Positions 2,932-17,128 of a stretch of DNA of 64,000 nt are shown in pieces (within the stretch, counting starts at the first letter, position 1; every line of letters begins with the position of its first letter). Under the pieces are notes generated by a model, which saw only the letters and a program-made list of their open reading frames with translations, searched no databases and was not told the origin of the DNA. This DNA comes from a virus. Made by a program: the position numbers and the translations under genes. Where the stretch lies: positions 26,838-90,837 of the IMG/VR virus record IMGVR_UViG_3300037244_000020. One strand, written 5' to 3'.

Positions 2932-3546
2932 TTAGATGTCCACCATTTCCGGGGAAAACTCCAGGGGCGTGGCTTGAACGCCTCGAATCGGTTCTGCGCC
3001 CAGGGCTACCATGCTCTGCCCCTTTGGAAGCGCAGCCTTCGGTTTCTGTGCCGTATCGGCAGGTTCTGGTGCGGTGCCGCCTAGAGCCTTGATCGCAGCA
3101 TCAATCCTCTCGCGCTCGGTCGTCAGCCAGCCAATCTGCAGCGTTCTAATCATCGTCTCTGACGGCGGCCACTCTTCCGACTCGATCGCGGGAAGCATCA
3201 CGGCGCGCAGCCACCTATGGAAGTGGATAGCAGGGCCGTAGGCGGCTTCGGACCAGTCGTCGGTACGTGAGGCAGGGGTAGCGGCGAAGAGGCCCTCACG
3301 GGTCACGCATTTGCGCGGGTAACGCTTCCCGGCGAAGGGGAGAGTGCGAATCTCTACTTCGTCGCATGTGGGGCGCATGCGATCAGGGCATTCATACAGC
3401 AGCGCTTGCGCCAGTTCGGTGAACGGGAAGAAGAATTCGCCATCACAGCGTACGGCGGTCACGGGGTGAGTGTGCCCGTCATGGGCGGGGTAAGTGAGTG
3501 TGAGGGTGTCGGAGGGGGTGATCATGGTTTCTTGGGTGGGCCTCAT
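2932..3546 (-). CDS. BRO-N / antirepressor-like protein
   Basis: A 204-residue protein. Residues 30-140 carry patterns of the BRO-N domain found in phage antirepressors: FFFPFTELAQAL near the start, a TREGLF segment, and HFHRWLRAVMLPAI, which matches the usual (F)xxWLxxxVLPAI signature. BRO-N proteins bind DNA and often sit in regulatory regions. The C-terminal 60 residues are Ala/Pro-rich. The start at 3546 overlaps the upstream stop as ATGA; an internal ATG at 3525 is possible. Confidence 0.6.
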   Translation of the reverse strand: MRPTQETMITPSDTLTLTYPAHDGHTHPVTAVRCDGEFFFPFTELAQALLYECPDRMRPTCDEVEIRTLPFAGKRYPRKCVTREGLFAATPASRTDDWSEAAYGPAIHFHRWLRAVMLPAIESEEWPPSETMIRTLQIGWLTTERERIDAAIKALGGTAPEPADTAQKPKAALPKGQSMVALGAEPIRGVQATPLEFSPEMVDI

Positions 3547-3896
3547 TCCGGGGTACCTACGAGGATCATGGATTTGCAGCCAAGGGCGACTACTTCGAAT
3601 TCCGAGAGTTTGCGCGCCTTTTGATCAGGCTTGAGCTTGGCGCCGTACGTGATCAGGATGCGGACACCTTCCTCAGTGACGACACCCCAGGCGGTCGCGC
3701 CTCGCACACCTCGGACATAGGTTAGACAGGGCCACTTCCCAGAGACGCCACTAGCGCTACTCTGAGAGTAGCCTAGCCAGCGCGCGATATCAGAGGCGAC
3801 AAAAATCAACTGCCCGCCTGCCAGCGCGCATCGTATCTGTCCAGGGCCGTCCTTAAAGACGTAGGGCACGCTCATGAACTCGGGGATGTCACGCAT
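3543..3896 (-). CDS. Second BRO-N-like protein
   Basis: A 117-residue protein with the BRO-N opening pattern: a short beta segment, then LIFVASDIARWLGYSQ, which resembles the usual FxxxDVxxxLGY motif, and a TEEGVRILI stretch corresponding to the second strand-helix unit. It sits in tandem with the 204-residue BRO-N-like gene (4-nt overlap), suggesting a regulator pair. The role is unknown. It overlaps the end of 3889..4533 by 8 nt. Confidence 0.55.
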   Translation of the reverse strand: MRDIPEFMSVPYVFKDGPGQIRCALAGGQLIFVASDIARWLGYSQSSASGVSGKWPCLTYVRGVRGATAWGVVTEEGVRILITYGAKLKPDQKARKLSEFEVVALGCKSMILVGTPE

Positions 3897-4533
3897 GAGC
3901 GGTCTCCACTCGGCTCGTCTTGGCTTTCTGGTCAGCGCGCCACTTACGGGCGCGTTCTATAGCTTTGAGGCGGCGGTCTTCGGCGCGTGCCGGGGCCGTC
4001 TTCGCACTTCTGATCTTGCGCAGTTCCCCCTTTATGGCGAGGATTTCGGCTCTCTTCTCTCGCTCGATAGCCCGTGCCTGCTCATCGGCTTTGACATCTT
4101 CAGCGATCAGTAACCAGGTGGGCGGCTTTTTCGGCGCGTTTAGGCGGTCAAGCCTCGCTTGCATGCGTCTGGACCGGGGGATCTGGTCAACAGGCACCTC
4201 AAGACTCCAGTACTTGTGGCGCGACTGCCCCCGGCGATCCCGCTCGCGGGCTAGCTGAAGTACGCAGTCCTCGGGGGACTGTGCGTCAGGGTCGTTCAGC
4301 GCTTTGCCACTTTCCCAGTAGATACGCAGTGTCAGGTACGCGATGCGTTCGTCCATCTGCAGGAAGTTTTCCGCAGCTTCTTCGGCGTGGCGTTGTAGGT
4401 GTTCGTATTGGTCAGTATCGTACGCCGCGTTTGCCAGTTTCTGGCGCTGCAGCGCATGACCCCAAGACACGTCCTTCTTTACCCTGGCCTTCGCACGGCG
4501 TACGTAGAGGGAGGGGCTTACTTTGCTGGACAT
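3889..4533 (-). CDS. Basic, helical hypothetical protein
   Basis: A 214-residue, very Arg/Lys/Glu/Ala-rich protein starting MSSKVSPSLYVRRAKARVKK. The last 70 residues look like a long charged helix. I chose the ATG at 4533 because of AAGGA 6 nt upstream; the frame stays open further upstream, but there it crosses a strong hairpin (4547..4617). Composition suggests nucleic acid binding. It is the first gene left of the repeat-rich region and may act there, which is an inference. Confidence 0.65.
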   Translation of the reverse strand: MSSKVSPSLYVRRAKARVKKDVSWGHALQRQKLANAAYDTDQYEHLQRHAEEAAENFLQMDERIAYLTLRIYWESGKALNDPDAQSPEDCVLQLARERDRRGQSRHKYWSLEVPVDQIPRSRRMQARLDRLNAPKKPPTWLLIAEDVKADEQARAIEREKRAEILAIKGELRKIRSAKTAPARAEDRRLKAIERARKWRADQKAKTSRVETAHA

Positions 4534-4546
4534 GCGCGTTCCTTGC

Positions 4547-4617
4547 CCTGTGACGATGGGCCTTGGCAGGCCCTGCATAAGGTCAGGGGGCCTTTGCAGG
4601 CCGCCCATCGTCACAGG
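4547..4617. promoter_or_regulatory. 14-bp perfect inverted repeat before 3889..4533
   Basis: CCTGTGACGATGGG (4547-4560) and its exact complement (4604-4617) flank a 43-nt loop that has its own weak GGCC-rich pairing. In leftward RNA this is a large hairpin ending a few nt before the ribosome binding site of the gene starting at 4533. It is a likely control element (attenuator, translational operator or protein-binding site). Confidence 0.65.
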
Positions 4618-4755
4618 ACCCTTATGTTTAGCTTGTTCCCTGTGTATCTGCCAAGATTTGCAGGGGGCTTTAAGGTTCGCAGCGCTTTGCACGCCGCGTT
4701 CGGAAAGGTAGGCCAATCTCAGCGATTTGTCAATACCTCCCGCAGCGACTGACCG

Positions 4756-4902
4756 ACCGTACGCAGAGCTACCCCCCCCGGCGGAAACCCCCAGGTTGGG
4801 ACTTTGTTAGTCACTTTTGTACAGAGAGATATCTTATACAAAAGTAACTAACATTCTTCTTCCCTGCGAGTTTCCTTCTGGGGGGGTGCCTTTGCGTACG
4901 GT
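4756..4902. promoter_or_regulatory. Nested inverted-repeat structure
   Basis: The outer arms, 4756-4777 and 4881-4902, match at 19 of 22 positions (ACCGTACGCA... and ...TGCGTACGGT). A short GGAAAC/GTTTCC pair lies inside. Inner arms at 4805-4821 and 4837-4853 match at 16 of 17 positions (core ACTTTTGTA/TACAAAAGT). AGATATCT (4827-4834) sits at the centre. The whole has the symmetry of a cruciform or a multi-dimer operator. No gene is present. Confidence 0.7.
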
Positions 4903-4921
4903 AAATAACTCCAATAAATTC

Positions 4922-4970
4922 AACTACTTATAAGTGCACTTTTTTGGTGCACTAGCAATGACAAGTAGTT
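4922..4970. repeat. Small stem-loop with GTGCAC pair
   Basis: AACTACTT (4922-4929) pairs with AAGTAGTT (4963-4970). Inside are two copies of the palindrome GTGCAC (4934-4939, 4947-4952) separated by seven nucleotides, mostly T. It directly abuts the first 24-bp repeat of the array, so it is probably part of the same control or origin region. Confidence 0.5.
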
Positions 4971-5410
4971 AGCTGCATTCAATGTAGGCTAATGCCTATT
5001 TTTTAAGCACCGCTGCCTAATTTTTAAGCATTAGCCTACATTGAACGTAGCTAGGTTTTGCCTATTTTTTAAGCATTAGCCTACATCAATGTAGGCTAAT
5101 TCGGGTTTAGCCTACATTGATGTAGGCTAATTTAGGGTTAGCTGCATTCAATGTAGGCTAGTTTCCTTACAAAGCTGAGAGAGGCTCCCGAACGCCGTTG
5201 TAAGGAAACTCATGAGTGGCGTGAAAACAACGGGTTTTTAGCTGCACTCAATGTAGGCTAATGCCCGATTAGCCTACGTCAATGTAGGCTAATGCCTATT
5301 TTTTAAGCAAAAGCTAGCCTACGTCAATGTAGGCTAATGCCTATTTTTTAAGCAGGTGAGCGGAAAGCGTGCCTATTTTTTAGGCATTAGCCTACATTGA
5401 ATGCAGCTAA
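4969..5410. repeat. Repeat-rich candidate replication origin
   Basis: This stretch has no gene. It holds nine copies of a 24-bp near-palindrome of form TTAGCCTACA-N4-TGTAGGCTAA at 4969, 5031, 5076, 5107, 5138, 5238, 5269, 5314 and 5387. Interleaved are six copies of TGCCTATTTTTTAAGCA at 4993, 5014, 5059, 5293, 5338 and 5370. The AT-rich second element repeatedly abuts the palindrome. Iterated binding sites next to AT-rich tracts are the hallmark of iteron-type origins or multi-site operators. Which of these it is cannot be told from sequence alone. Confidence 0.75.
5161..5209. repeat. 12-bp perfect hairpin inside the repeat region
   Basis: GTTTCCTTACAA (5161-5172) and TTGTAAGGAAAC (5198-5209) flank a 25-nt loop. 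It splits the repeat array into a left group of five and a right group of four 24-bp palindromes. Confidence 0.65.
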
Positions 5411-5425
5411 AAACTCCGAGTTGCG

Positions 5426-5596
5426 TCAGACGAACGCTGAAAAAATATGAAAAATATTTGGGCAACCTGCGAACAACCAGCCGAAAAAGAGGCCAGTGAA
5501 GAAAACCCCGCCCGTTGTCAAGAGACTTTCTTTGGTTGTCTCTGCGTCTTTCGGGAAGAGGAAGAGCGGTTTGTGGTGTTTGTGTTTGTGGTGCAT
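5426..5596 (-). CDS. 56-residue small membrane protein
   Basis: The frame starts MHHKHKHHKPLFLFPKD, with a His/Lys-rich head. A hydrophobic segment follows (residues about 25-45, TGGVFFTGLFFGWLFAGC) that should span the membrane. GGAGG lies 7 nt before the ATG and the start is 2 nt after the previous stop, so it is well supported despite its size. The function is unknown. The stop lies just right of the repeat array. Confidence 0.7.
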   Translation of the reverse strand: MHHKHKHHKPLFLFPKDAETTKESLLTTGGVFFTGLFFGWLFAGCPNIFHIFSAFV

Positions 5597-5598
5597 GG

Positions 5599-5787
5599 TT
5601 AGACCTCCGCCAATTTCTTGCTGTATGTGAAGAGGCGGTAGCTGCCGGATAGCTCGACAAACACAGGGAACTCTCCGACACGCGCGGGACGATGAACGTC
5701 TCGGCTGTATCTCGGCTTATCTACGCTGCCTACCAATTTGTTTTCTGCGGGGTTCCACTCTTTGCTGTCCACTGTCTTGACTGTCAT
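5599..5787 (-). CDS. Hypothetical protein
   Basis: A 62-residue basic protein starting MTVKTVDSKEWNPAENK, with several beta-type segments (FPVFVELSGSYRLFTYS). It is preceded by the repeated 31-nt linker whose GGAGAAAACGAG element acts as ribosome binding site. No family is recognised. Confidence 0.75.
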   Translation of the reverse strand: MTVKTVDSKEWNPAENKLVGSVDKPRYSRDVHRPARVGEFPVFVELSGSYRLFTYSKKLAEV

Positions 5788-5813
5788 CTCGTTTTCTCCA
5801 GTTGGTTCGGTTA
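5783..5813 (-). repeat. 31-nt intergenic linker, copy 1
   Basis: An exact 31-nt match to 6334..6364. It runs from the TAA stop of one gene through CCGAACCAACTGGAGAAAAC to the ATGAC start of the next. A third, partial copy is at 6549..6570. Confidence 0.85.
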
Positions 5814-6338
5814 GATGGCTGCAGACTTGCGCTTGCCTTTCTCAAAGGCGCGCTCTAACGCACGTTGCACGCTCAAGGCGTTGACCGTGAAAATTACGAC
5901 GTGAGCGCCGCGCTTGCCTTTAATTTCCACGACGCTGTTTTCGACGGACTCCACGACGCATTTCGTGTTGAGTTTGTAATCGCTGAAGACGAGAGATCCT
6001 AAGACCGTACCCGGCTTCAGGTTCAACGCTGCTTCAGCGTCAGCCAGTCGTTTCGCAGCGGCGCGAGCGTCGATCACTTGGCGTGCGTAATAGACCTCAT
6101 AGCCGAAGTCGCCACCCTCTACGTTGGAGCGGTTCCGTGCTGCGTCTTCCGGCCGCAAGTAGTCGCCGAAGTCTGCCTTGACGAAAGCCTTAACTTCGCT
6201 GCTGTAGAACAGGCCGGAGTCAAGCGCCTGCTGCGTGGCGTCGATTAAGCGCTGTTCGTGGGCGACTGGCTCACGGTGTCCGGCTGCGATCGGGACCCAA
6301 GTCGTGTATGCGTCGTCTGATAGTGGGTAATGGGTCAT
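5811..6338 (-). CDS. Hypothetical protein
   Basis: A 175-residue protein starting MTHYPLSDDAYTTWVPI. The middle is an Ala-rich helix (DARAAAKRLADAEAALN). The C-terminal 70 residues look like a small beta domain (GTVLGSLVFSDYKLNTKC, VVEIKGKRGAHVVIF) ending in a basic helix. Its stop and its start each lie in a copy of the intergenic linker. I do not recognise the family. Confidence 0.75.
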   Translation of the reverse strand: MTHYPLSDDAYTTWVPIAAGHREPVAHEQRLIDATQQALDSGLFYSSEVKAFVKADFGDYLRPEDAARNRSNVEGGDFGYEVYYARQVIDARAAAKRLADAEAALNLKPGTVLGSLVFSDYKLNTKCVVESVENSVVEIKGKRGAHVVIFTVNALSVQRALERAFEKGKRKSAAI

Positions 6339-6364
6339 CTCGTTTTCTCCAGTTGGTTCGGTTA
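6334..6364 (-). repeat. 31-nt intergenic linker, copy 2
   Basis: An identical 31-nt sequence to 5783..5813, spanning the stop of 6362..6553 and the ribosome binding site and start of 5811..6338. The shortened third copy (22 nt, 6549..6570) precedes 6362..6553 and fuses directly to the promoter region. Confidence 0.85.
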
Positions 6365-6553
6365 TTCGGTCGCTGCGATCGCGTCCCGCATTTCGTTGTA
6401 ATCCATCGCGCGTACCTCGATCATTACCGCGATACGTTCCTCAAGACCGGCGACACCTTGCAAGCGGCGTTGCATCAATTCCGCGCGCATCGCTGCAGCT
6501 TGCGGAACTATCCAGTTACAGTCTTGGCGGGTACGTTCGTTAATCCGGGTCAT
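6362..6553 (-). CDS. Small helical hypothetical protein
   Basis: A 63-residue protein starting MTRINERTRQDCNWIVPQ, probably two helices. The ATG at 6553 is chosen because GGAGAAAACGAG of the shared linker precedes it and because the promoter (6579-6607) covers the longer upstream frame. It is the first gene of a leftward operon running to about 3.5-5.4 kb. Confidence 0.75.
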   Translation of the reverse strand: MTRINERTRQDCNWIVPQAAAMRAELMQRRLQGVAGLEERIAVMIEVRAMDYNEMRDAIAATE

Positions 6554-6578
6554 CTCGTTTTCTCCAGTTGATGAAGCT

Positions 6579-6607
6579 ATTATATACGGCTTCCTAGTTT
6601 TGTGCAA
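6579..6607 (-). promoter_or_regulatory. Sigma70-type promoter, dispersed family copy 3
   Basis: Read leftward: TTGCAC (6602-6607), 17 bp, perfect TATAAT (6579-6584). This is the best match of the family. It drives 6362..6553 and the genes behind it. Confidence 0.85.
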
Positions 6608-6625
6608 CAACTAGTTACCTTAAAT

Positions 6626-6859
6626 ATGGGCGGCTCCCTTGACTCCCGCCTAGCACAAAACGACACTCTCCGCATTATGGACATTTTCGCGAACGTTCCC
6701 CCTTTGTTTGACGACGGTCAAGACCTGTATAGGGTCCTGACGCCGTCCGACGCTATGAACTGGCACAGTGAAGCGTTTCCGGTCTACAATCCGGGCATAT
6801 CGCGCGCTGTACGTCTGCTGCATCGCGCCCTAGCCATTCTAAGGAGCGCTCCTCAATGA
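6626..6859 (+). CDS. Hypothetical protein coupled to the HU-like gene
   Basis: A 77-residue frame starting MGGSLDSRLAQNDTLRIMD, with an alternative start at the later MDIFANVPP (6677). It is one of only two rightward genes in a leftward region. It overlaps the HU-like gene as ATGA (6856-6859), which argues that it is real. No clear ribosome binding site or promoter is visible. No family is recognised. Confidence 0.5.
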   Translation: MGGSLDSRLAQNDTLRIMDIFANVPPLFDDGQDLYRVLTPSDAMNWHSEAFPVYNPGISRAVRLLHRALAILRSAPQ

Positions 6860-7137
6860 TTACTGCGCCGCCGCGCAAGCTGGTTTCCCGTGTCGCGAAG
6901 AAGACAGGTTTGAAGATGGAATACGTGCGGGACGTGCTCGTCGCAGCCTTTGAACAGATCAAGGATGAAGCTGCAACAGGGTCTATCATGATTCGCGGCT
7001 TCGGCACGTTTCATACAGCGACGCGCGCTGGATGTGTTCGCCCGTCGCCGTCTGACACGTCGAAAATTATCGAGGTGCCGTCGACCAGGCGGCTTACGCT
7101 GAGGTCGCCTTCGGATCGGATTGAAGAGGATGAGTGA
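6856..7137 (+). CDS. HU/IHF-like DNA-binding protein
   Basis: 93 residues, the normal length for the HU family. The N-terminal helices (KKTGLKMEYVRDVLVAAFEQI) lead into the family hallmark IRGFGTFHTATRAG, then a variable arm and the closing strand TRRLTLRSPSD. HU proteins bind and bend DNA as dimers and often help replication or packaging. The canonical arm Pro lies in a divergent VRPSPSDTSK segment. AAGGAG precedes the start. The 3' end faces the clamp gene 3 bp away, convergently. Confidence 0.85.
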   Translation: MITAPPRKLVSRVAKKTGLKMEYVRDVLVAAFEQIKDEAATGSIMIRGFGTFHTATRAGCVRPSPSDTSKIIEVPSTRRLTLRSPSDRIEEDE

Positions 7138-7140
7138 GGG

Positions 7141-7722
7141 TTAGCCGTAAGCGCAGGGTGTGAACGCGTCGGCAACCTTTTCAGAGCGCCGTGGCATGAT
7201 GACGCAGAACGCCGTGCAATCCGGGCCGTGCATGACGCCGCTGCCGTCATACGTGCGTAACTCGGTGTTGGGTTTGCTGTCATGCCACGTCTGTATGGCC
7301 TTTTCGGCGTCCGCAATGTAGCTCCAATTGAATTGGAGCGCGTCTTGCTGTATGCGTTTCGTGGGGATAACACGGCGCCAGTCAGGAAATTTGCCGTCGA
7401 TCGGTGTGAAAATTGGGTCGCCTAAGCTGTAACGCCCGTCGGGCATTGCTGATAGCGTGATGTCTCCCTTACCTTTGACAGCTGTCTTTACCGTGTCAGA
7501 CGGCACGATAATAGAGAACGGGCCTTTCTGCGGGGTGTCAGTCCAGCGCGCAATCGCCGCCGGAATCAAGCCGCAAAACATACGATGTCCATCCGTCGCG
7601 ACGATGTGGATATCCCCGGATGCCGTGAATTCAAGAAGAACGCCGTTAAGGTAATAGCGAATGTCTTTTACTGCTGCATGAGAGAGTGCCGCGCGAAGTT
7701 GGGATTTAGTGAATGTGATCAT
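7141..7722 (-). CDS. Shortened DNA polymerase III beta-clamp-like protein
   Basis: 193 residues against about 366 in bacterial clamps. It aligns to the second and third clamp domains. IRYYLNGVLLEF and VATDGHRMF match the E. coli domain-2 pattern RYYLNG...VATDGHR. FPDWRRVIP matches the start of domain 3 (FPDYRRVLP), and FCVIMPRR matches the C-terminal AYVVMPMRL. Domain 1 is missing and domain 3 is short. Clamps ring DNA and tether polymerases. No clamp loader is seen here. The start at 7722 follows the upstream stop by 4 nt. Confidence 0.8.
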   Translation of the reverse strand: MITFTKSQLRAALSHAAVKDIRYYLNGVLLEFTASGDIHIVATDGHRMFCGLIPAAIARWTDTPQKGPFSIIVPSDTVKTAVKGKGDITLSAMPDGRYSLGDPIFTPIDGKFPDWRRVIPTKRIQQDALQFNWSYIADAEKAIQTWHDSKPNTELRTYDGSGVMHGPDCTAFCVIMPRRSEKVADAFTPCAYG

Positions 7723-8174: not shown

Positions 8175-8203
8175 ATTATGCCTGGGTTTATAGTTTTGTG
8201 CAA
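8175..8203 (-). promoter_or_regulatory. Sigma70-type promoter, dispersed family copy 4
   Basis: Read leftward: TTGCAC (8198-8203), 17 bp, CATAAT (8175-8180), then AGCTACATCGAA. It drives 7873..8139 and the clamp genes. Confidence 0.82.
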
Positions 8204-9011: not shown

Positions 9012-9043
9012 TTTGTTTCCCTGCGTTTCGTTTCAGTAAAGCT

Positions 9044-9072
9044 ATTATGCCGTAGTTTTTAGTGAGGAGCAA
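9044..9072 (-). promoter_or_regulatory. Sigma70-type promoter, dispersed family copy 5
   Basis: Read leftward: TTGCTC (9067-9072), 17 bp, CATAAT (9044-9049), then AGCTTTACTGAAACGAAA. It is the most diverged copy and drives 8751..9011. Confidence 0.72.
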
Positions 9073-9080
9073 GCGGAATT

Positions 9081-9485
9081 TTAGTCAGTATCTATGACAC
9101 CCTCTAAGTACCTCAAGAATGACCCGCAGTGTTTGCAGCGCTTGCTCTCAGTACGCTTGAGGCGCTTGCGCGCTGCATATATCGCGTTAGACCCTATGCG
9201 CAGCGACCTAGCGACGTTTTCAATGCCCATTTCCGGGTCTTTAGACAGCAAGTCTAGTGCTATCCTGGTTCGGCTTACCGCGGGCGCCCTGTTAGTTACC
9301 CGTGGTTCGAAATAGCCTGTGTAGCGGTTAGCTGGCTTGGCAGGATGACCTCTCATCCGCTCGGCAGAAAGCGCGCGGGAGATTAGCGATTGGGATACTC
9401 CGAGAAGCTGGCAGACCCTGTACTGCGTCATACCGGGGTTGTTCCGCAATATTTCTAAGGCTTGCTGAGTCTTACTTTTTTCCAT
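9081..9485 (-). CDS. Double helix-turn-helix protein with Cys pair
   Basis: 134 residues. The first 45 hold a clear HTH (QYRVCQLLGVSQSLISRAL). Residues about 75-110 hold a second one (GIENVARSLRIGSNAIYAAR). A C-terminal CKHCGS pair may bind zinc. The arrangement resembles small phage DNA-binding proteins, either regulators or terminase-small-subunit-like. It could be the regulator of the leftward arm, but that is inference. Confidence 0.7.
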   Translation of the reverse strand: MEKSKTQQALEILRNNPGMTQYRVCQLLGVSQSLISRALSAERMRGHPAKPANRYTGYFEPRVTNRAPAVSRTRIALDLLSKDPEMGIENVARSLRIGSNAIYAARKRLKRTESKRCKHCGSFLRYLEGVIDTD

Positions 9486-9672
9486 TTGTTGCGTATCCGA
9501 GACAGCGAAAAATTCCTAATTTTTATCTCTTGACACCGACGAAATTTTCTGGTTTGTCGGCGTTACGAAAAATTAGCCTAAGCACAAGTGTATAGCAAGT
9601 GCGGTCTAGTTGGCGCGCAAACCGCCAGTGCGCAAGGCTTTCGCTCGCCAACTACTTAACACGGGTAAACCC

Positions 9673-14607: not shown

Positions 14608-16161
14608 ATGACCGTCAACTTCACTGCGACGACCCCTGAGGGGTTTCCGCCACCAGTCCAACAACTGATTCAAGGCAATGCTAACGACGTGCGCGAACCA
14701 AGCCGCGTCGTGCAGAACATGATGGTCAACTGGCTCAAGGTCACGACGTTGCTCGGCGGCACCAAGGCGATGCGGGAGGCTGCGACCATCTTCCTCCCCA
14801 AGTGGCGCCGGGAAGAGCCGAATGACTACGCGCTGCGCCTGAAGACGACGGTGTTGTTCAACTGCTTCGGCCATACGGTAGACGGCCTAGGCGGCAAGCC
14901 TTTCGTGCGGCCGCTGGGCTGGTCGACGGATATGTCTCCAGAGGTTGAGGCGTGGTTCCCCAACATCGACCTGACGGGTCGCAGCTTTCACGTCTTCGCG
15001 CAGGAAGTCTTCAAGTTCTCACTTGCCTACGGCCTGTCGCATGTGCTGATTGACTATCCGGTGACTGCGGGGAAGGTGCGTACCGTCGCTGATGAAAAAG
15101 CGATCGGCGCCCGCCCCTACCTAGTCCACGTCAAGGCCAACCAGATTCTCGGCTGGCGCTCGACGATGAAAAATGGCGGCGAAGTGCTGACGCAAGTTCG
15201 CATCCTTGAGACCTGCGAAGTGGAAGATGGCCCGTTTGCCACGCGAACCGTCGAGCAGGTCCGCGTGTTGGAGCCGGGAACGTGGACGACCTACCGGCTA
15301 AAGCCCAAGCAGGCGCTTGTCACTCAGATCAGCCCGTCATCCAATGATCCGCAAGAGTGGGCGGTGTTCGATAGCGGCACCACGTCGCTCGACTACATCC
15401 CGCTCATCACTTTTTACGCACGCCGTACAGGTTTCATGACGGCGGACTCGCCGCTAATCGACATCGCGGACCTGAATATCCTGCACTGGCAGGTCGGGTC
15501 AGACATGTATTCGGTGCTGCACACCGCGAGCGTGCCGATTTTGACGATCACCGGCGTCGAAGGCAATGACGATGGCGAAGCGACTCTGGAAATCGGCACG
15601 GCGTCGGCGCTGAAGTTACCACAGGGCGCAACGGCACGCTTTACAGAGCACAGCGGGAAGGCTGTCGGGTCGGCGCTGACCGCACTCGGCACGATGGAAG
15701 AGCAGATGCGTCTGCTCGGTGCCGAGTTGCTTGTGAAGAAGCCGGGGCAGGCGACCGCGACGCAGGCTACGCTCGACACGAGCCAGCAGCGGTCGGAACT
15801 CCAGGCTATCACTAGCGTATTCGAGGATACGTTGGATCAGATCGTCGGGGTCATGGCGGCATGGGGCAATATCCAGAACTTCACGGGCAACATGCAGGTC
15901 TATGACGACTTCCTGCTCGCGGCCGACGACGCGGTGCAAGAAGCGCTGCTATTCTCGATCGTGACGGCAGGTCTGCTCTCGCCGCAGTCGTTCTTTGAAG
16001 CCATGCAGCGGCGTAACGTGTATGACACTGACATGACTTGGGAGCAAGAGCAGGAGCGTATCAAGGCGCAGCCGCTGCCAGCGCCGTCCCTGCTGCAACC
16101 GAAGGTGGCAGGCATTCCGAAGGTGGCGTCAAGTTCTACTTTGGCGCAGTTGAGTGATTGA
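14608..16161 (+). CDS. Portal protein (DUF4055-type)
   Basis: 517 residues, MTVNFTATTPEGFPPPVQQL.... The body matches the siphovirus portal family annotated as DUF4055: DYALRLKTTVLFNCFGHTVD, DLTGRSFHVFAQEVFKFSL, LAYGLSHVLIDYP, and the later LNILHWQVGSDMYSVLHTA. It forms the dodecameric DNA channel at the capsid vertex and contacts the terminase. It follows the large terminase by 24 bp; TATAATCGCGGAAA lies between them. Confidence 0.85.
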   Translation: MTVNFTATTPEGFPPPVQQLIQGNANDVREPSRVVQNMMVNWLKVTTLLGGTKAMREAATIFLPKWRREEPNDYALRLKTTVLFNCFGHTVDGLGGKPFVRPLGWSTDMSPEVEAWFPNIDLTGRSFHVFAQEVFKFSLAYGLSHVLIDYPVTAGKVRTVADEKAIGARPYLVHVKANQILGWRSTMKNGGEVLTQVRILETCEVEDGPFATRTVEQVRVLEPGTWTTYRLKPKQALVTQISPSSNDPQEWAVFDSGTTSLDYIPLITFYARRTGFMTADSPLIDIADLNILHWQVGSDMYSVLHTASVPILTITGVEGNDDGEATLEIGTASALKLPQGATARFTEHSGKAVGSALTALGTMEEQMRLLGAELLVKKPGQATATQATLDTSQQRSELQAITSVFEDTLDQIVGVMAAWGNIQNFTGNMQVYDDFLLAADDAVQEALLFSIVTAGLLSPQSFFEAMQRRNVYDTDMTWEQEQERIKAQPLPAPSLLQPKVAGIPKVASSSTLAQLSD

Positions 16162-16162
16162 T

Positions 16163-17128
16163 ATGAGACCCGCCTTCGCCACCGCTGTAGCTGCTTTGTT
16201 CATCGACCACGGAGTGCGTTTGGTCCAGACGGCGGATGGTCTGACGCAAGACGCCAACGACCGTTTAAGAGAAGCCGCTGATGTGATTGGGGCGCTTCTG
16301 CTCGCCACCGACTTCTCGAACTCGACGGACGTGACCAGCACGCTTGTGATCATCAAGTCGACCATCGAGGATGCCTATCAGCAGATCGCTGCGGAATCTT
16401 CAAAAAGTCTTTCGGGCCTGCCCGCCATAGAATCACAGTTCGTCGTCTCGGCGATCAACAAGGAAGCCGAGCAGGTTTTGATGCGGTCTCCTCGCCTGAC
16501 CGTGACCGAGCCACACCTCGATGGCGTTCCGGTCTCGGCCTGGTGGGATGCGCAACAGAAAGACACGGTCGCAAAACTCGTAGCGACCGTGCGCGTCGGC
16601 ATCACGGCAGGGCGGGTAGCCCAGGAGATTGCGAACATGATGGTCGCGGCGAACGGGCCAATGGCAGGAGCGATGAGGAACGCTGAGACGCTCACGCACA
16701 CCGCCGTGCAGCGCGTCGCGATGGATACGCGCAACGCGGTGCTGACTGCCAATAAGAGTGTCGTAGAAGGGCTGCAGGTCGTCGCCGTGCTCGACTCACG
16801 GACTTGCGCGCAGTGTCTGGCCTACGACGGGGCGACTTACGATCGCAGCGGCGAGCCAGTTGGCGACACGACGCTGCCGTTTAACGGAGGGCCAGCCTTT
16901 CACTTTCATTGCCGATGCGGTACGGTGCCGATCTTCCTCGACCAGCCGCCTCCCGAGAAGCTAACCGCCGAAGCGTGGCTCGACAGTCGTACCGAAGCGC
17001 AGCAAGACGACATGCTCGGGGAAGGGCGCGCTGCACTCTACCGGAAGGGAAGTTTGACGCTCAGAGATTTGGTTTCTGGGACAGGAACTCAACTTTCTCT
17101 AGCGCAACTTAGAGAAAAGTACAACTGA
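16163..17128 (+). CDS. Head morphogenesis protein (SPP1 gp7 / Mu gpF-like)
   Basis: About 321 residues. The C-terminal half has the family signature VLDSRTCAQCLAYDGATYD followed by HFHCRCGTVPIF, a Cys/His cluster seen in Mu F-like minor head proteins. The N-terminal half is helical. An ATG at 16163, 1 nt after the portal stop, is preferred; a GTG at 16154 inside the portal end is an alternative. It probably binds the portal and a few copies enter the head. Confidence 0.85.
   Translation: MRPAFATAVAALFIDHGVRLVQTADGLTQDANDRLREAADVIGALLLATDFSNSTDVTSTLVIIKSTIEDAYQQIAAESSKSLSGLPAIESQFVVSAINKEAEQVLMRSPRLTVTEPHLDGVPVSAWWDAQQKDTVAKLVATVRVGITAGRVAQEIANMMVAANGPMAGAMRNAETLTHTAVQRVAMDTRNAVLTANKSVVEGLQVVAVLDSRTCAQCLAYDGATYDRSGEPVGDTTLPFNGGPAFHFHCRCGTVPIFLDQPPPEKLTAEAWLDSRTEAQQDDMLGEGRAALYRKGSLTLRDLVSGTGTQLSLAQLREKYN

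Follow-up and report, generated by a model that had tools for sequence, protein, structure and literature searches.

To our knowledge, the replication origins of phages that carry their own replisomes are mostly unmapped. Among the described systems closest to the locus reported here, the origin of the Vibrio phage satellite PLE is a gene-free region with semi-palindromic repeats that have a poly-A/T centre, one repeat type being bound by a RepA_N initiator (PMC7145576). The lambda and Stx-phage origins combine a cluster of four or six iterons for the O protein with an AT-rich stretch (PMC7466680), and E. coli oriC contains DnaA boxes together with IHF and Fis sites (PMC10380432).

The window analyzed here is a stretch of 64,000 nucleotides (bases 26838-90837) from the 90,837-bp record of an uncultured phage; positions are those of the window unless indicated. 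The record carries an exact 127-bp direct repeat at its ends and was therefore considered a complete genome of ~90,710 bp. No close relative was found at the DNA level in an annotated phage collection. Genes run leftward from the beginning of the record up to ~10.2 kb of the window, rightward via the structural block to ~43.9 kb, and leftward again afterwards. Proteins encoded by the phage include a PolA-type polymerase that also contains a 5'-3' exonuclease domain, helicases of the SNF2-like and AAA types, a primase-like AAA protein, proteins resembling a ligase and SbcCD, a Terminase_2 TerS, a sliding clamp related to DNA polymerase III beta, and an HU/IHF-like protein. A leader motif, TGCACAAAAC...TATAATAGCTTC, recurs upstream of leftward early genes (6579-6606, 8175-8202, and ~9035-9072) and is probably a common early promoter, and another leader, CAACTGGAGAAAACGAGATGACC, is nearly identical in three adjacent leftward genes (starts at 5787, 6338, and 6553). 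Other features of this genome are a pentapeptide-repeat-like protein with strongly repetitive coding DNA (2160-2789) and, outside the window, a gene for a kumamolisin-type subtilase with a pro-peptide (record 15286-16878; L008 2286-3878), which is unusual for a phage genome.

Organization of the array

The gap at 4534-5598 (1.06 kb) has a longest stop-free run of 91 codons, and no family-level gene was found in it. Within this gap, 440 bp are occupied by nine 24-bp palindromes interleaved with six AT-rich 17-mers (Table 1), as the initial annotation had claimed. These are the clustered near-identical repeats required in an iteron-type origin of the lambda or plasmid kind. The formula first given for the palindromes, TTAGCCTACA-N4-TGTAGGCTAA, was exact only in the copies at 5076 and 5107, while the seven others deviated from it. 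Those at 5269 and 5314 differ by one or two mismatches, and the remaining five, with 5-6 of 12 pairs self-complementary, join one full half-site, TTAGCCTACAT, to a variant half of the TTAGCTGCATTC type, in agreement with the half-sites of unequal quality described before. The 17-mers follow the pattern TGCYTA-W5-TARGCA (in searchable form, TGCYTAWWWWWTARGCA), four being identical and two variants. Their direct contact with the palindromes had been noted for five copies but applies to all six, with 0 bp in between; the centres of adjoining 24-mers and 17-mers thus lie 20.5 bp apart, approximately two helical turns.

Table 1. Features of the array and its surroundings (window coordinates)
Feature	Coordinates	Strand	Remarks
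Left flanking gene, basic protein, family not assigned	3889..4533	-	
Long imperfect inverted repeat	4756..4902	.	66-nt arms, 76%; AT-rich apex containing AGATATCT
Lowest-stability 400 bp of the genome, putative region of unwinding	4783..5183	.	Nearest-neighbour energies
Small hairpin AACTACTT...AAGTAGTT	4922..4970	.	Encloses two GTGCAC palindromes; overlaps first bases of P1
Whole array (nine 24-bp imperfect palindromes, six 17-bp palindromes)	4969..5410	.	Quasi mirror-symmetric about ~5184
24-mer P1 TTAGCTGCATTCAATGTAGGCTAA	4969..4992	.	Variant half left
17-mer TGCCTATTTTTTAAGCA	4993..5009	+	Abuts P1; Fis-type motif
17-mer TGCCTAATTTTTAAGCA	5014..5030	+	Abuts P2
24-mer P2	5031..5054	.	Variant half right
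17-mer	5059..5075	+	Abuts P3
24-mer P3 TTAGCCTACATCAATGTAGGCTAA	5076..5099	.	Self-complementary pairs 11/12
24-mer P4	5107..5130	.	Self-complementary pairs 11/12
24-mer P5	5138..5161	.	Variant half left
Central stem-loop GTTTCCTTACAA...TTGTAAGGAAAC	5161..5208	.	Coincides with symmetry centre of array
24-mer P6	5238..5261	.	Variant half left
24-mer P7	5269..5292	.	
17-mer	5293..5309	+	Abuts P7
24-mer P8	5314..5337	.	
17-mer	5338..5354	+	Abuts P8
17-mer TGCCTATTTTTTAGGCA	5370..5386	+	Abuts P9
24-mer P9	5387..5410	.	Variant half right; mirror of P1
Right flanking gene, small	5599..5787	-	
HU/IHF-like DNA-bending protein gene	6856..7137	+	Kept beside array position in L187 and L188
Sliding clamp (DNA polymerase III beta-like)	7141..7722	-	
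Tandem double helix-turn-helix protein, candidate binder of 24-mers	9081..9485	-	3.7 kb from array

Outside the array, all matches in the whole 90.8-kb record have at least seven mismatches to the 24-mer or at least four to the 17-mer, and this absence of near-matches to either word excludes chance. The array region matched no Rfam family. Repeated palindromes at one gene-free place resemble parS or sopC, and the array might serve a phage-plasmid as its partition centromere or in plasmid stability. We regard this as highly improbable, given that searches of the record (E <= 0.1), in which controls were detected, found neither ParA (PF13614) nor ParB (PF02195), and that a tyrosine integrase was not found either.

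The array is also an inverted repeat of itself, with arms at 5002-5120 and 5248-5366 that are 74% complementary and outer arms at 4964-4998 and 5381-5415 that reach 94%. The adjacent stretch is AT-rich and easily melted, as expected beside origin iterons, and the corresponding DNA of the relative L188 (see below) is AT-rich too. Here, the inverted repeat at 4756-4902 is, as a hairpin, much more stable than its shuffles (z -7.1), and its apex is one of the 60-bp stretches with the lowest stability in the genome. Long imperfect palindromes of this kind resemble sites of site-specific recombination or telomere resolution, with the array as accessory sites, a function in which Fis sites are common. 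However, searches of the record detected no tyrosine integrase gene, the partner expected of an attP site, and no protelomerase domain (a family found in just 1 of 14 controls), and we give this explanation hardly any credence.

A relative with an exchanged 24-mer and the 17-mer in unrelated phages

A terminase alignment scan led to a distant relative, L188, which is part of a 51-kb contig (TerL 66% and major capsid 72% at the amino acid level) and is collinear with positions 2.9 to ~29 kb of the window. The syntenic gap of L188, also gene-free, is flanked by its homologues of the window genes at 2932-3546 and 6856-7137 and holds eleven copies of the 24-mer AACTGGTAGGAAAACCGATCAGTT, spaced mostly 41-42 or 50-52 bp and absent elsewhere in the 21 kb fetched. 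This word is unrelated in sequence to the 24-mer of the window, has the same length, and likewise shows two kinds of half-site, AACTGGTAGG and AACTGATCGG, one copy with two AACTGGTAGG halves being a near-perfect palindrome. Interleaved with these copies are three 17-mers of the window pattern (TGCTTAAAATTTAGGCA, TGCCTAAAATTTAAGCA, and TGCTCAAATATTAGGCA), each separated from a 24-mer by 2 bp. The two phages thus share the arrangement and the 17-mer, and the 24-mer has been exchanged. A search of relatives for the same words, as initially proposed, succeeded for the 17-mer pattern but met a different word in place of the 24-mer. Of all the comparisons made, the one with L188 weighs most heavily in our assessment. 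To judge from sequence, this suggests a start region made up of one fast-changing part (24-mers) and one conserved part (17-mers), and, if this reading is right, the pair of arrays would represent a natural experiment on the joint change of initiator and site.

DNA-level searches with the array against phage and plasmid collections gave zero matches, and the exact 24-mer patterns had only single chance copies in viral and genome collections, for example in terminator-like hairpins of L005 and L006. Two other sets of candidate relatives were discarded: L009 and L010, close by polymerase, are without the clamp gene and their map extent stops short of the array region, and L091-L093, relatives of gene 5811-6338, are unrelated phages without a comparable array. 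One of these, L092, has ~1 kb of gene-free DNA rich in CCTAGG-containing repeats (5600-6650), downstream of the homologue of that gene.

When all fetched loci (3.15 Mb) were scanned, L022, L026, L035, and L057 were each found to contain two copies of the exact 17-mer at a distance of 41 bp. The only similarities of these four to the window phage are the clamp (~34% amino acid) and a weak polymerase match. One copy was present in L072, from a third phage group with clamp similarity only. All of these copies sit in gene-free DNA. For six control patterns built in the same way, the scan returned 0 matches. Along whole records, the pattern is limited to 1-3 copies in these groups (reversed controls, 0). 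The copy of L072 shares its gene-free region, between TerS and the clamp, with an iteron array of yet another word. The 17-mer sequence was not found in the papers searched, and BLAST of the N-padded word against phages returned nothing, the word being too short for this result to inform.

A packaging site (pac or cos) recognized by the small terminase would be compatible with the position of the 17-mer in L022 and L072, two unrelated groups in which it precedes the gene for that protein by no more than a few hundred bases. However, the distance from array to small terminase gene is 5.2 kb here and ~4.2 kb in L188, and the 24-mer words change completely while TerS stays 57-62% identical, making such a function very unlikely.

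In the revised 17-bp high-affinity motif of Fis, G/C is required at +/-7 and a pyrimidine-purine step at +/-3-4; the centre is A/T, and T/A is preferred at +/-8 (PMC4784862). Every one of these elements is present in all six 17-mers, and the only six matches to the motif in the record lie inside the array (0.3 expected genome-wide). Since the 17-mers alone meet the motif in the 90.7-kb genome, host Fis is their natural candidate binder, and no Fis/HTH_8 protein was found in the record. However, the 17-mers are far more uniform than Fis needs, with C/G fixed at +/-6, and identical across unrelated phages; because Fis would not need identity at +/-6, another binder is possible. We tentatively entertain, with considerable doubt, that the 17-mer is the site of one conserved factor, not generic Fis, shared by the origins of otherwise unrelated phages, and that a phage-specific iteron module is swapped between relatives. 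If true, the swapping perhaps keeps replicons mutually compatible.

Candidate binders, clamp-linked arrays, and strand skew

The double helix-turn-helix (HTH) protein is kept in L186-L188 with a different putative recognition helix, as would be expected for a binder of the exchanged 24-mer. Its predicted fold has tandem three-helix domains and no significant PDB match, the predictions for this and the other candidate binder (3889-4533) being of low to moderate confidence. The half-site at 9573, from which self-regulation of the double-HTH gene had been proposed, does exist. However, TTAGCCTA is found at three places away from the array, and among the half-site matches there the one at 9573 comes only ~18th; thus, it is indistinguishable from chance, and the proposal was not supported. 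The protein is encoded by one gene here, and in L188 (~6152-6511) its halves appear as two adjacent small genes.

Loci were scored for gene-free arrays, an array being a 9-mer repeated five or more times in 700 bp. Such arrays were present in 16 of the 80 loci retrieved by clamp similarity but in just 3 of 148 terminase-linked loci, L188 among the latter three. A separate count of palindrome clusters gave 17/80 versus 2/80, with 0 clusters in shuffled sequence. All 16 clamp-linked arrays are upstream of the clamp, 15 of them within 1.1 kb. Their words vary by phage group (ATTGCCAAT, ATGACTAAC, TGTCCACAA, and others), with roughly eight distinct words, the loci being partly from related phages and not all independent. 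Several of these phages (L018, L024, L060, L072, L036, and others) have gene-free arrays with phage-specific words between the small terminase and clamp genes. Gene-free iteron arrays upstream of the clamp are possibly a general origin marker in uncultured phages.

The clamp-linked arrays of other phages sit at divergent gene junctions, where operators would also be located, and this position, added to the partial relatedness of the phages, counts against the origin reading. An operator or enhancer array, through which a phage regulator (for example, the double-HTH protein kept in L186-L188) and Fis would control the surrounding leftward operons, is also in line with palindromic dimer sites with graded half-sites, typical of operators, and with Fis sites serving promoters as well. 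However, the genes on either side of the array point the same way both here and in L188, and the divergent junction is at a different place, ~10.2-10.6 kb; sigma-70 promoters show no excess around the array, and no promoter of the genome has further copies of its sites. We consider regulation of this kind unlikely.

When GC skew was modeled with gene strand as a covariate, a replication-like component improved the fit (0 of 30 block shuffles did as well), which weakly supports an origin. However, the fit puts the switch near 0.4 kb (interval from -0.6 up to 3.4 kb) and not at 5.2 kb, where the array is located, so that the array is close to but outside this range. The skew change suggested as a check is thus placed 2-5 kb to the left of the array. 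Also against the origin reading, no known initiator family was found, RepA_N (PF06970) being absent in a whole-record search, and no O-like gene was recognized near the array.

Even so, an origin is the best-supported reading given the iteron-like words in a gene-free gap, the lowest duplex stability of the genome, a relative that keeps the layout with a re-invented word, and the association with the clamp gene. It is further supported by the uniqueness of the array in a complete genome, by the phage-encoded PolA polymerase, helicases, ligase, clamp, and HU/IHF-like protein, by the exact 17-mer in gene-free DNA of unrelated clamp-bearing phages, and by the confinement of all Fis-motif matches of the record to the array. 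We think it rather probable that the array, initially annotated as a candidate origin, is the replication origin of a phage encoding its own replisome. At such an origin, a phage initiator dimer would bind the 24-bp palindromes, full and weaker half-sites giving graded occupancy. At the 17-bp sites, at a distance of two helical turns, the DNA would be bent by a protein that is probably Fis of the host, or by a similar factor, and the HU/IHF-like protein of the phage may assist in wrapping the ~450 bp. The strained complex would open the unstable flank (~4783-5183), onto which the phage primase/helicase and the PolA-type polymerase with its clamp would load. We infer every binding step, every unwinding step, and the identity of the initiator. 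If true, a gene-free iteron array near a phage clamp, with or without a TGCYTA-W5-TARGCA site, would predict origins in many uncultured phages.

Comparison with known origins

None of the papers searched describes a design of two words of which one is conserved and the other exchanged. The array resembles oriC (PMC10380432) in having presumed initiator and bending-protein sites next to an unstable stretch; in contrast to the DnaA boxes of oriC, of which none was seen here, the presumed initiator sites are phage specific and exchangeable. With the lambda and Stx-phage origins it shares a cluster of initiator-type repeats beside an AT-rich stretch, but the lambda iterons are inside the O gene and without an interleaved second word, while the array is gene-free and has two. 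The nearest published case is the origin of PLE, a phage-linked replicon whose semi-palindromic repeats also have an AT centre and lie in gene-free DNA. The array differs from it by its two interleaved palindrome types, nine and six copies, of which the AT-centred type fits Fis and not an initiator, and it falls outside the PLE/RepA_N origin family because RepA_N is absent from the record. It may nevertheless work similarly to the PLE origin.
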